Part shown: in pieces, positions 59,413 to 64,000 of the stretch
Position numbering within the stretch: position 1 is the first letter of the stretch
Layout: each line of letters opens with the position of its first letter
NCBI RefSeq assembly: GCF_000828655.1
Contig: NZ_AP014509.1
Location: 620,001-684,000 of the forward strand
DNA from: Thermotoga caldifontis AZM44c09
Lineage (GTDB): Bacteria; Thermotogota; Thermotogae; Thermotogales; DSM-5069
Length of the DNA: 64,000 nucleotides
Direction: 5' to 3'
Notes under the pieces: model-generated
What the model was told of the DNA's origin: nothing
The model's input: only the letters and a program-made list of their open reading frames with translations
The model's database searches: none
Translations under genes and position numbers: made by a program

Positions 59413-61581
59413 ATGGCGAAAAAGGTCATAATCGTTGAATCCCCAGCGAAGGCAAAAACCATAAAAGAGATCCTCGGTGGAGAGTACGAAGTAATATCTT
59501 CCAGAGGGCACGTGCGTGACCTTCCCGAGAAAGAGTTCGGTGTCGACATCGAAAACTTCGAGCCAACTTTTCAGATCATAGACGGAAAAGAGAAAGTTGT
59601 GGAAGAAATCATCGAAAGGACGAAGAACAAAGAAGTCTACCTCGCTTCCGACATGGACCGGGAAGGTGAGGCGATCGCCTGGCACCTCGCAAACATACTC
59701 AACATTCTGAACAAAAAGAACAGGATCGTGTTCAGCGAGATCACCCCGCAGACGATAAGGTCTGCCGTCAAGTCTCCAAGATTCATAGACATGAAGAAGG
59801 TCCACGCGCAACTTGCCCGCCGTATCCTCGATCGCATCGTTGGTTACAAAGTCAGCCCGCTGCTGTGGAAGCTTCTCAGGACCAGTTCCAGCGCGGGAAG
59901 AGTCCAGTCTGCAGCGCTAAAGCTCGTCTGTGAGCGTGAAGTTCAGCGTCACAGGTTCGTCCCGAAACGTTTCTGGAAGGTGCAGGGATACATAGGTTCT
60001 TTGAGGTTCTATCTGACCCACGTGGATGGGAAAAAGATAGAAATGCAACAGGTGGATGAAGCTCTCGCCCGGCAGATACAACGCGAAGTCAAAGAACTGA
60101 AGCTCGTGCAGAAAAAGGTCAGAACCGTTGAGAAAAAGCCTCCCTTGCCTTTCATAACGAGCACCCTTCAACAAGAAGCGGCCAACAGATTCGGTTTTTC
60201 CGTGGCAAAAACGATGCAGCTCGCCCAGATGCTCTACGAAGGTGTGGAGACGCCCGAGGGCCACAGAGCCTTCATAACGTACATGAGAACCGATTCAACA
60301 CGCATTTCCGAGTACGCGAGAGATCAGGCTGAGAAATTCATCAAGAAGAATTTCGGGGAGCGTTACCTCGGTGAATTCAGGACGGAGCAGAGGAAGCCAA
60401 ACGTCCAGGACGCACACGAGGCGATCAGGCCCGTCGACGTCGAACTCACACCGGAAAAGGCCCAGAAACTTCTGGATAAAGATCTCCTGAAGCTGTACAG
60501 GCTCATTTGGGAAAGGTTCGTCGCCTCACAGATGGCTCCAGCAGTTTACGAGGAAACGATCTACATGTTCGAATCTGGCAGGTACGGCTTTGAAGCGAAG
60601 ATGGAGAGAAGGATCTTCGAAGGCTTCGAAGCGGTCATGAACAGAAAGGAAGAACACGTAGAACCCCTCGAAGGAGAAACCTTCAAGGTGACCAAGTGGA
60701 ACATCGAACAGGACGAAACGAAGCCCCCAGCCAGGTATACAGAATCTTCGATGGTCAGGGCACTGGAAGCGAGGGGCATCGGGAGGCCGAGCACGTACGC
60801 GACGATCATCTCCACATTGCTCGAACGAAAGTACGTCGTGAAGAAGTCGAAGGAGCTGGTTCCAACTGTTTTGGGATTCGTCGTCAACCATTACATGGAG
60901 CAGAGATTTCCGAAAATAGTGGACCTCGACTTCACTGCGAGGATGGAGGAAGCGCTCGATGCTATCGAAAGGGGTGAAAAGGATTACAAGCAGGTGTTGA
61001 ACGAATTCTACGAGGAGTTCTCCGAGCAGTTCACGAAGGCTGAAAGAGAGTGGCTCTCCATAGATATCCAGACGAACGTTGACTGTGAGTGTGGCCGGAA
61101 GTTCTCACTGAGGGTTGGACGTTTCGGACTGTACTTGTCGTGTCCTTCGTGCGGGAAAACGTCTTCCGTCGAGCTGGAAAGTCCAGCAGTGATGGACGGA
61201 AACGTGATGTATTTCACCGATCAGGAGGAAAGCAGAAGCTACACGTGTCCGAACTGTGGAGGAGAACTGAAAAGAACCAGCGGCAAGTACGGCGCTTACT
61301 ACCACTGTCCCAAATGTGGTAAGAACTACAAAGACTTTGCGAGGGGCAGCTGTCCAAAATGCGGTTCTGCGGTCGAGAAAAAGGTGAGTAAGAACAAAAA
61401 GAGCTTTTTCAAATGTACCAATCCAGACTGCGATTACGTGAGCTGGCTCGAACCTTCACAAGAGTCGTGCCCAGATTGCGGTGAAAGGTTACATTACAGA
61501 AAAATCCGCTCCTCAGAAAGGTTGTACTGTCAGAAGTGCAGAAAGACGTTTCAAAAACCTGGGGAGGGAGCAGAAAGTTGA
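59413..61581 (+). CDS. topA: DNA topoisomerase I with four C-terminal zinc ribbons
   Basis: 722 residues. The TOPRIM domain (VIIVESPAKAKTI; LASDMDREGEAIAWHLA) is followed by the type IA core with the catalytic Tyr in ITYMRTDSTRIS (about 290-301). The C-terminal 170 residues hold four Cys-pair modules: CECG...CPSC, CPNC...CPKC, CPKC...CTNPDC and CPDC...CQKC. It relaxes negative supercoils. The stop overlaps the ddl start (TTGA). Confidence 0.97.
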   Translation: MAKKVIIVESPAKAKTIKEILGGEYEVISSRGHVRDLPEKEFGVDIENFEPTFQIIDGKEKVVEEIIERTKNKEVYLASDMDREGEAIAWHLANILNILNKKNRIVFSEITPQTIRSAVKSPRFIDMKKVHAQLARRILDRIVGYKVSPLLWKLLRTSSSAGRVQSAALKLVCEREVQRHRFVPKRFWKVQGYIGSLRFYLTHVDGKKIEMQQVDEALARQIQREVKELKLVQKKVRTVEKKPPLPFITSTLQQEAANRFGFSVAKTMQLAQMLYEGVETPEGHRAFITYMRTDSTRISEYARDQAEKFIKKNFGERYLGEFRTEQRKPNVQDAHEAIRPVDVELTPEKAQKLLDKDLLKLYRLIWERFVASQMAPAVYEETIYMFESGRYGFEAKMERRIFEGFEAVMNRKEEHVEPLEGETFKVTKWNIEQDETKPPARYTESSMVRALEARGIGRPSTYATIISTLLERKYVVKKSKELVPTVLGFVVNHYMEQRFPKIVDLDFTARMEEALDAIERGEKDYKQVLNEFYEEFSEQFTKAEREWLSIDIQTNVDCECGRKFSLRVGRFGLYLSCPSCGKTSSVELESPAVMDGNVMYFTDQEESRSYTCPNCGGELKRTSGKYGAYYHCPKCGKNYKDFARGSCPKCGSAVEKKVSKNKKSFFKCTNPDCDYVSWLEPSQESCPDCGERLHYRKIRSSERLYCQKCRKTFQKPGEGAES

Positions 61582-62471
61582 AGATCGCAGTCCTGATGGG
61601 TGGTGTATCCAGAGAGCGAGAGATCTCTCTGAGGAGCGGTGAGAACGTTGTTAAAGCCCTGAGAAAGCTCGGTCATGAGGTGACTCCGATAGACGTTGGA
61701 GAGAACTTTCTTCAAGTGCTACCCACGCTGAAAGGGTTCGATCTGGTCTTCATAGCGCTCCATGGTAAGTTCGGTGAAGACGGCACAGTTCAGGCTCTCC
61801 TCGACTGGCTTGGGGTGCCTTACACCGGCTCGGGGGTGCTGGCGAGCGCTCTGTGCTTCGACAAGTTGATGACCTACAGGGTCGTGGAAAAGTTCGTTCC
61901 GGTTCCGGATTACGTCGTCGTCGACAGGCCCACGAGGGAATCTCCCTTCGGTTTTCCTTGCGTGGTGAAGCCCCGCAAGGAGGGTTCGAGTATAGGCGTG
62001 CACATATGCGACGGTCCAGAGGAACTCGAAGAGAGTTTGAAAACGGAACTGGAGCTCTATGGTGAGATGATCCTGCAACGATACATAAATGGTAGAGAGC
62101 TCACGGTATCTGTGATAGAAATGGATGGTGAACTGAGAATACTTCCGATACTCGAGTTGAGGCCGAAGCGCAGGTTCTACGACTACATAGCCAAGTACAC
62201 GCCGAACATGACAGAGTTCATCCTTCCCGCCCCACTGACGGAGGAGGAGTACAGAGCGGTCTGTGATTCCTGTTTGAAGGCCTTCAGGGCGTGTGAGTGC
62301 AGAGGTTTTGCAAGGATAGACGGAATCCTGAAGGACGGCACGTTCTACTTTCTGGAGATCAACACGATACCCGGTATGACGGATCTGAGTGACATGCCAG
62401 CGTCTGCACGTGCGGCGGGAATGAGTTTTGAAGACCTGATCGACGTGATAGTGAAGACGGTGAAGAGATGA
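61578..62471 (+). CDS. ddl: D-alanine--D-alanine ligase
   Basis: 297 residues from TTG 61578, with GGGAGGGAG upstream. IAVLMGGVSREREISLRSG start, HGKFGEDGTVQALLD (about 67-81), PYTGSGVLASAL, the ATP-grasp lid KPRKEGSSIGVH and the metal loop FYFLEINTIPGMTDLS define Ddl. It makes D-Ala-D-Ala for peptidoglycan. The topA stop and the following clamp-like start both overlap it by four bases. Confidence 0.97.
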   Translation: MKIAVLMGGVSREREISLRSGENVVKALRKLGHEVTPIDVGENFLQVLPTLKGFDLVFIALHGKFGEDGTVQALLDWLGVPYTGSGVLASALCFDKLMTYRVVEKFVPVPDYVVVDRPTRESPFGFPCVVKPRKEGSSIGVHICDGPEELEESLKTELELYGEMILQRYINGRELTVSVIEMDGELRILPILELRPKRRFYDYIAKYTPNMTEFILPAPLTEEEYRAVCDSCLKAFRACECRGFARIDGILKDGTFYFLEINTIPGMTDLSDMPASARAAGMSFEDLIDVIVKTVKR

Positions 62472-63493
62472 GAGCGACTGTGGAACTACCACTGCTCTCT
62501 TTCTGGCTGAGGTTCTGCGATAAACTGATTGGATCGTCCGAATACAGTTTCGGAAACGTCTATTTTTCTTACCAGGAAGGCCTCGTCGTACGCGCAACCG
62601 ATGGCTGTCTGCACGGTTGGATGAGGGTGGGAAGCTGTGAACCGTTCGAAGGTGAAATCGCCATACCGCTGAGGCTGTTGAAGGGTTTCCTGGTCGGTGA
62701 GAGTGGTGAATTTCTAAACTTGGTACTGACGGAAGATGAAATCGTGCTCAGTTCCGCAAGCGAAGCTCTGAGGATCAGGCTCGCGGCGAGGAGGGATAAA
62801 CAGGTCCCGGTTGAGCACGAAACCGTGGCCCGGTCAAACGTGGCCAGCTTCAACCGCGCGCTGGACTTCGTGACGTCACCGCTCGAAGAAGGAGATTTCG
62901 CCCTTTTCGGTACGTTTCAGAAAGAGTTGTTGCTCTTTGCCTCCACACGCACACTACTCTGTCTCACTCAGTTAAAGGGAGAGACCGTCAAAGAATTCGT
63001 TTTTTCTTTTCCTTACATGAGCGCGAGGCACATCGTGAAGGCTCTCGAAATTTACGGCAAAGACACCCAGCTGAACTTCGGTTTGGGTGAGGCACTTTTG
63101 CTGAGAACGGGCGATTTCACGCTGCAGCTGTGTGGAGAACAGGCTTCTTTCGATCTTAGGATAGGAAACTTTCTTGTGAGAAGGGAAAGCTATGTGCTTC
63201 CGAAAAACTTTCAAAGGTTCGTTTCCAAGGCGGCATGGCTCATGCCGAGGGAGAGTGTCCTCACGGTTGAGTGCGTTAAGAACACCCTGAGGTTTTTCGG
63301 GGGCTACGGCACGGTGGCGTACAGGGCGATTCTGCCGTTCGAATGTCCTTTGAGGTTCGAGGTCGAATTCTCCCCACACAAGTTGAGGTCTGCGCTCGCA
63401 CGGATGGGCAGCAAACTCTTTCTGAGCGCTGGAGATGGGTTCGTCAAGATAGAGGACAGTTCATCCAGAACGGTGGTGTTGAAGAAGCGATGA
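62468..63493 (+). CDS. Divergent DNA polymerase III beta-clamp-like (DnaN-fold) protein
   Basis: 341 residues. The N-terminal third follows the DnaN domain 1 pattern: GLVVRATDGCLHGWMRV where clamps have the aTDl segment, then FEGEIAIPLRLLKGFL (about 58-73) and EIVLSSASEALRIRLAA. A second domain (about 119-226) includes VFSFPYMSARHIVKALEIYG, and the third ends with LFLSAGDGFVKIEDSSSRTV, matching the clamp C-terminal strand pair. It is shorter than DnaN (about 366) and lacks the usual C-terminal MPxRL-type motif. I infer a clamp paralogue or clamp-derived protein. ATG overlaps the ddl stop. Confidence 0.6.
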   Translation: MRATVELPLLSFWLRFCDKLIGSSEYSFGNVYFSYQEGLVVRATDGCLHGWMRVGSCEPFEGEIAIPLRLLKGFLVGESGEFLNLVLTEDEIVLSSASEALRIRLAARRDKQVPVEHETVARSNVASFNRALDFVTSPLEEGDFALFGTFQKELLLFASTRTLLCLTQLKGETVKEFVFSFPYMSARHIVKALEIYGKDTQLNFGLGEALLLRTGDFTLQLCGEQASFDLRIGNFLVRRESYVLPKNFQRFVSKAAWLMPRESVLTVECVKNTLRFFGGYGTVAYRAILPFECPLRFEVEFSPHKLRSALARMGSKLFLSAGDGFVKIEDSSSRTVVLKKR

Positions 63494-64000
63494 GCGATGG
63501 TGTGTGGAAACGCACGTTGAAAGTTTTTTGGGTTTTCCTGAAGGTCTCCTCGCTGACGCTCGGCGGAGGTTACGCGATGGTTCCCGTGATACAGTGGGAA
63601 GTTGAAAGGCTGGGCTGGATGAAAAAAGAAGAATTCCTCGTCCTGTTGTCTGCCGCACAGAGCATGCCGGGACCGATCGCGTTCAACACCGCCGTCCTTG
63701 CAGGCAAGAGGGTGGCAGGTGTACTCGGGGCCATCCTGGCTGGCGTTGCGATCGCACTGCCTCCGTTCTTCGCGATCGTGGCCGTTGCCAGCGCACTCAA
63801 GCCTTTTTTGAACAACACGTACGTCAGAGCTTTTTTGCTCGGTGTCTACGCGGCAGTTGTGGGTCTGGTCTTCAACGTACTTCTCGGTCTGCTCAAAAGA
63901 CAGAGATGGGGAGTTCTGAAAGTTGTGGTAGTTACTCTTGGAGTGGTGCTGCTCATGGTCAGTAAAAACTTGCTGTACGCGGTCTTCGTCGTGAGCATCG
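63490..64000 (+). CDS. Chromate-transporter (ChrA/CHR)-family protein, 5' part
   Basis: 170 residues are visible before the right edge. KVFWVFLKVSSLTLGGGYAM (about 11-30), the conserved QSMPGPIAFNTA (about 71-82) and several hydrophobic helices identify a CHR-family half or full transporter; despite the name, many family members probably move other anions. The ATG overlaps the stop of the clamp-like gene (ATGA). Whether a second CHR half follows cannot be seen. Confidence 0.9.
   Translation, partial: MSDGVWKRTLKVFWVFLKVSSLTLGGGYAMVPVIQWEVERLGWMKKEEFLVLLSAAQSMPGPIAFNTAVLAGKRVAGVLGAILAGVAIALPPFFAIVAVASALKPFLNNTYVRAFLLGVYAAVVGLVFNVLLGLLKRQRWGVLKVVVVTLGVVLLMVSKNLLYAVFVVSI

Follow-up and report, generated by a model that had tools for sequence, protein, structure and literature searches.

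The 341-residue protein encoded on the plus strand of the window at positions 62468–63493 has, according to structure prediction, the fold of the bacterial sliding clamp DnaN. The window is a stretch of 64,000 nucleotides, positions 620001–684000 of the complete 2.01-Mb chromosome of Thermotoga caldifontis AZM44c09. In our best explanation, which we hold to be about as likely as not, the protein is a second β-clamp protein specific to Thermotogota, which comes from DnaN or is anciently related to it and acts on DNA alongside the PolC replicase. In most bacteria a single gene encodes the clamp, and the bacterial clamp is regarded as a homodimer whose two docking pockets are identical. To our knowledge, a division of labour between clamps is known in archaea and eukaryotes and not in bacteria. 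A phylum-wide clamp paralog that lacks the pocket and is linked to PolC suggests such a division of labour at the replication fork.

The paralog gene and its neighbours

The open reading frame has an ATG start and 341 codons and occupies exactly 62468–63493. This confirms the length noted in the first-pass annotation, and the loss of the C-terminal MPxRL motif noted there is confirmed as well, since the protein ends in TVVLKKR. Upstream on the same strand lies the D-alanine-D-alanine ligase gene ddl (longest open reading frame 61536–62471; Pfam PF07478, 1.6e-48), whose true start is likely the TTG at 61578. Downstream, also on the plus strand, a chromate (CHR) transporter gene (63490–64000; PF02417, Chromate_transp, 3.1e-38) runs off the window. 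Pfam thus agrees with the identities first given to the two neighbours. Each of them shares a 4-nt ATGA overlap with the paralog gene: the ddl stop at 62471 overlaps the paralog start (62468–62471), and the paralog 3' end overlaps the transporter gene (63490–63493).

Homology to DnaN and the predicted fold

Searched alone at a cut-off of E 10, the window protein matched no Pfam or NCBIfam model, and the PDB gave no significant match to it. Since the similarity to DnaN is invisible from the single sequence, a family alignment was built, and the similarity became clear once relatives had been added. Relatives within Thermotogota reach down to ~22% identity, and a relative with 75% identity sits in a Pseudothermotoga MAG. 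When a profile of 25 relatives was compared with the PDB, it matched β clamps only (best E 5.8e-4); the paralog profile also retrieves the canonical dnaN of its own phylum. The profile-profile comparison with DnaN that had been proposed as a check was made with hhalign against Thermotogota DnaN. It aligned over the full length with a score of 97.5 (E 7e-13, 17% identity), whereas one reversed and eight column-shuffled controls scored 15–20.5. Some members match PF00712 (best 1e-5), TIGR00663 or phrog_947. Matches to Pfam and NCBIfam are few, and phrog_947, a DNA polymerase processivity factor, was matched by 11 of the 25 members. Because the standard family models miss the paralog, it is probably called a hypothetical protein in most annotations.

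AF2 models were obtained for the window protein (pLDDT 93.1, pTM 0.90) and for a distant branch of the paralog family (pLDDT 91.0, pTM 0.86). The best structural matches of both models are clamps (Z 26–27.6, ~330–340 residues aligned), and 331–340 of the 341 residues of the window model were matched, with Z up to 27.6. In both models, the chain is made of three repeats of a domain in which two helices lie against sheets. In the window protein, DSSP of the model places domain I at residues ~1–115 (62468–62812) and domain II at ~116–240 (62813–63187). Domain III, at ~241–341 (63188–63490), was assigned from the model and from motif counts; all three lie on the plus strand. The first-pass annotation had called for a prediction as a ring dimer, and the clamp fold was borne out for the single chain. 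The idea that an unrelated protein resembles DnaN by coincidence in short segments agrees with the absence of any match to the window protein alone, but its probability is negligible, as it is refuted by the profile, the fold and the shuffled controls.

Among the closest known proteins is the canonical DnaN of the same phylum, represented by T. maritima DnaN (TM0262, PDB 1vpk), also a three-domain clamp (Z 26.8, rmsd 3.9, 337 residues aligned). It has the same order of helices and strands and basic residues on the channel-type helices. In contrast to 1vpk, the paralog, which is 14% identical to it in the structural alignment, lacks DGxRL, FPDY and MPxR.

Distribution and evolution

The genome of the window carries a single ordinary dnaN (G000:C1:735569-736669), ~52 kb downstream of the paralog and outside the window. 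The description of the protein as a second clamp is therefore right for the genome and wrong for the window. The search for a normal dnaN elsewhere, which had been recommended, was thus successful, and the profile, the predicted fold and this gene agree in identifying a divergent sliding-clamp-like protein.

The paralog is present in 98 of 103 Thermotogota genomes and in 36 of 38 genera, as a rule in a single copy beside the ordinary dnaN. We considered whether the relatives in other families are their sole DnaN, and rejected this, as both genes coexist. A search of 150 genomes outside Thermotogota did not find the paralog in any of them; the lone weak match, in G119, turned out to be the ordinary DnaN of this genome, in which DGRRLA, FPNYRDVLP and MPVR are present. 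Within the phylum, the paralog was not found in G010, G033, G035, G048 and G054, also with sub-family profiles. All five genomes are drafts, and two genera were negative in both their genomes. Very divergent copies were considered for these genomes, but the weak matches to the sub-family profiles proved to be their canonical DnaN. Given five genomes without it, the paralog may be dispensable.

Across 300 genome pairs, the divergence of the paralog tracks that of DnaN (r = 0.93) at ~1.9 times the DnaN rate, as expected for vertical inheritance. The dN/dS of 0.04–0.10 indicates that the gene is functional and under purifying selection. Phage-encoded β clamps (phrog_947; BFVD matches) share the fold at ~10–16% identity. 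The paralog differs from them in that tblastn detected no relative of it in phage and plasmid records, and in that its divergence tracks DnaN within one phylum. Models of defence systems gave no match.

A second chromosomal clamp gene next to the ordinary dnaN is also found in Bacillus, where DnaN-2 is ~40% similar to DnaN-1 and able to join replication (review, PMC3290774). In contrast to DnaN-2, the Thermotogota paralog is <20% identical to DnaN (17% profile to profile) and has no pocket. The literature searched, in which subscription journals were thinly covered, gave no description of another clamp or a DnaN paralog in Thermotoga.

In a congener, genome G004 (L005:1501-2517, L155), the 3' half of the paralog gene has been duplicated in tandem (query residues 167–340, 71% identity), and the first copy, ahead of the duplicated half, has an altered C-terminus. 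Three genomes contain additional DnaN-type genes, distinct from the paralog (G060:C1:1818036-1819064, G039:C23:20505-21587 and G058:C55:30342-31463). Their products are 27–34% identical to the DnaN of the window's genome, and one has an internal stop. Possibly, these genes come from mobile elements.

Conserved residues, charge and the ring interface

Among 80 paralog members, G22 is invariant (80/80), and E or D is always found at position 25 (80/80). In domain I, conservation covers D18-K19, G22 and E25 after helix 1, and D45-G46-C47; E141 is conserved as well. In domain II, the second helix (183–196 in the model) carries the motif P-Y-x-x-x-R187-H-x-x-K191, in which both R187 and K191 are found in 80/80 members (R187-H188-x-x-K191, 63026–63040, plus strand). 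The second helix of domain III has the conserved basic residues of R307-S-A-L-A-R312 (63386–63403, plus strand), with R312 in 75/80 and R307 in 59/80. In solved clamps, both of these helices line the DNA channel. By its position on helix 2, the R187/K191 pair is expected to face this channel. The cysteines C47 (62606–62608, domain I) and C222 (63131–63133, domain II; 77/80) are near-invariant, and both are absent in all three genomes of family f8, as if they acted as a pair.

Canonical DnaN combines a basic channel with an acidic protein. The paralog keeps the basic residues of the helices, but the whole protein is not acidic. Its net charge has a median of +5 (–3 to +19), compared with –18 (–29 to –10) for DnaN, with no overlap. 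Compared with the strongly acidic DnaN of the phylum, the paralog is thus neutral to basic and diverges about twice as fast. Signals at the ring interface are mixed. At position 101 of the domain I interface, a hydrophobic residue (L/I/M/V) is kept in 78/80 paralogs. On the domain III side, the equivalent of I272 is V or I in 30/30 DnaN, whereas in the paralogs it is R or K in 23/80 and gapped in 23/80. Judged from these residues, the ring interface is ambiguous.

It is conceivable, though rather unlikely, that the paralog forms no ring and is a monomeric basic factor that binds DNA or regulates the replisome, with one inner face on DNA, on acidic DnaN or on PolC. The separate charge range, the eroded domain III interface and the faster divergence are all in keeping with a monomer. 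On the other hand, a monomer would have no obvious need for the six channel-type helices and three domains, which have all been retained at nearly unchanged length.

Another reading that we consider unlikely is an accessory clamp that is sufficient by itself as a homodimer and serves repair, recombination or polymerase exchange. Its partners would dock at a new site on another part of the surface, in a logic comparable to that of the eukaryotic 9-1-1 checkpoint clamp. The clamp fold with its basic helices, the hydrophobic domain I interface (position 101), the operons with ruvC and the convergent dprA in family f8 agree with a homodimer. Against it, the domain III side of the interface is not conserved, and no dedicated second clamp loader was seen, although the Pfam delta model missed even the delta expected in the window's genome.

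Loss of the partner-binding pocket

Motifs of the peptide-binding pocket were counted in the 80 paralog members and in 30 DnaNs of the same phylum. The canonical motifs are DG(H/F)RLA, FPDYRR and the C-terminal MPxR(L). DGxRL was found in 0/80 paralogs and 30/30 DnaN, FPDY in 0/80 and 30/30, and MPxR in 1/80 and 29/30, respectively. By these counts, all three sequence elements of the pocket are gone in the paralog family. In the window protein, ASTRTLLC (residues 158–165; 62939–62962, plus strand) replaces ASDGFRLA of its own genome's DnaN, as placed by a gap-free alignment of the hairpin made by eye and supported by the motif counts. Position spectra show that the positions of this segment are variable among the members. 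Since they are not conserved, there is no sign of a substitute pocket with a fixed sequence in this segment.

To open a clamp, clamp loaders grip the peptide-binding pocket with their delta subunit. The first-pass annotation had proposed an accessory clamp, a clamp-loader decoy, or a fold reused for another task; the first or the last may hold, and the loss of the pocket disfavours the decoy. A decoy or DnaN antagonist is highly improbable. The related fold makes mixed pairing with DnaN conceivable, but no member has the pocket that the delta subunit grips, the paralogs have no clamp-binding motif of their own (0/80), and a phylum-wide housekeeping distribution fits this role poorly.

Gene neighbourhood and the link to PolC

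The genes adjoining the paralog differ between families. In the family of the window (f1), the neighbour is ddl, often with topA before it. In part of f2, alaS and hsp33 adjoin the paralog; in f3 the neighbours are clpX-tsaD or ispG, in f5 ychF, and in f8 dprA is the convergent neighbour. Family models identified polC, ychF and ddl; for alaS, hsp33, clpX, tsaD, ispG, dprA and ruvC, the names were given on inspection of the sequences by eye. In f9 and f11 the gene order is ruvC-polC-paralog, with a spacing of ~–11 to +11 nt. The paralog directly follows polC in 30 genomes (16/17 of f11 and 14/21 of f9); in most families it stands apart from polC, and the link to polC may trace to one ancestral arrangement. 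The topA-ddl setting, which the first-pass annotation had emphasized, is therefore uninformative: it is limited to f1, and the recurrent replication neighbour elsewhere is polC.

PolC carries a C-terminal clamp-binding motif (QITLF, QMSLF or QISLF) in f9, in f11 and in two genomes whose polC and paralog genes lie separately. The PolC tail needs a pocket and only DnaN has one, so DnaN stays the tether of PolC, and the contribution of the paralog must be a different one. It is probably not the replicative clamp of the genome, since the ordinary dnaN with its pocket motifs would fill this role.

We return to the paralog as a second clamp protein acting with PolC. It would hold or surround duplex DNA through a channel lined with basic helices. 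Without the pocket, it could not engage proteins through their usual clamp-binding motif, and the usual clamp loader would probably be unable to open it alone. As loaders grip the same pocket, a ring built of paralogs only should resist loading in the usual way, a difficulty that would not arise if the paralog shared a ring with DnaN. Most likely, the paralog would serve the PolC fork as an accessory subunit of the clamp, either in a specialised ring or in a pair with one DnaN protomer; its contribution would be grip on DNA or stability, and not the docking of partners. Several observations count against this explanation. The sequence gives ring closure no support, since conservation is lost on the domain III side of the interface. 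Most families have the paralog near ddl, alaS, clpX-tsaD, ychF or dprA and not near polC, and a conserved fold does not prove function.

A more specific form, a two-gene clamp, seems to us improbable in its details. Here DnaN would provide the pockets and the contact with the loader, and the paralog would be the other half of a mixed ring, leaving a single pocket per ring in place of two, reserved for PolC. We know of no earlier heteromeric bacterial sliding clamp, and such a ring would be the first. The main alternative to a mixed ring is the monomeric DNA-binding role. As many hosts are thermophiles, the paralog should purify easily.

The Pfam model of the clamp-loader delta (PF06144) had no match in the complete genome G000, though the T. 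maritima delta was matched; probably, the delta of G000 is very divergent. Several f9 genomes also encode a second, PolC-like polymerase of ~970–1025 aa, which matches the PolC model from ~position 377 onward (for example, G096:C1:1984984-1987356, G094:C10:75519-77888 and G086:C2:267282-269729).
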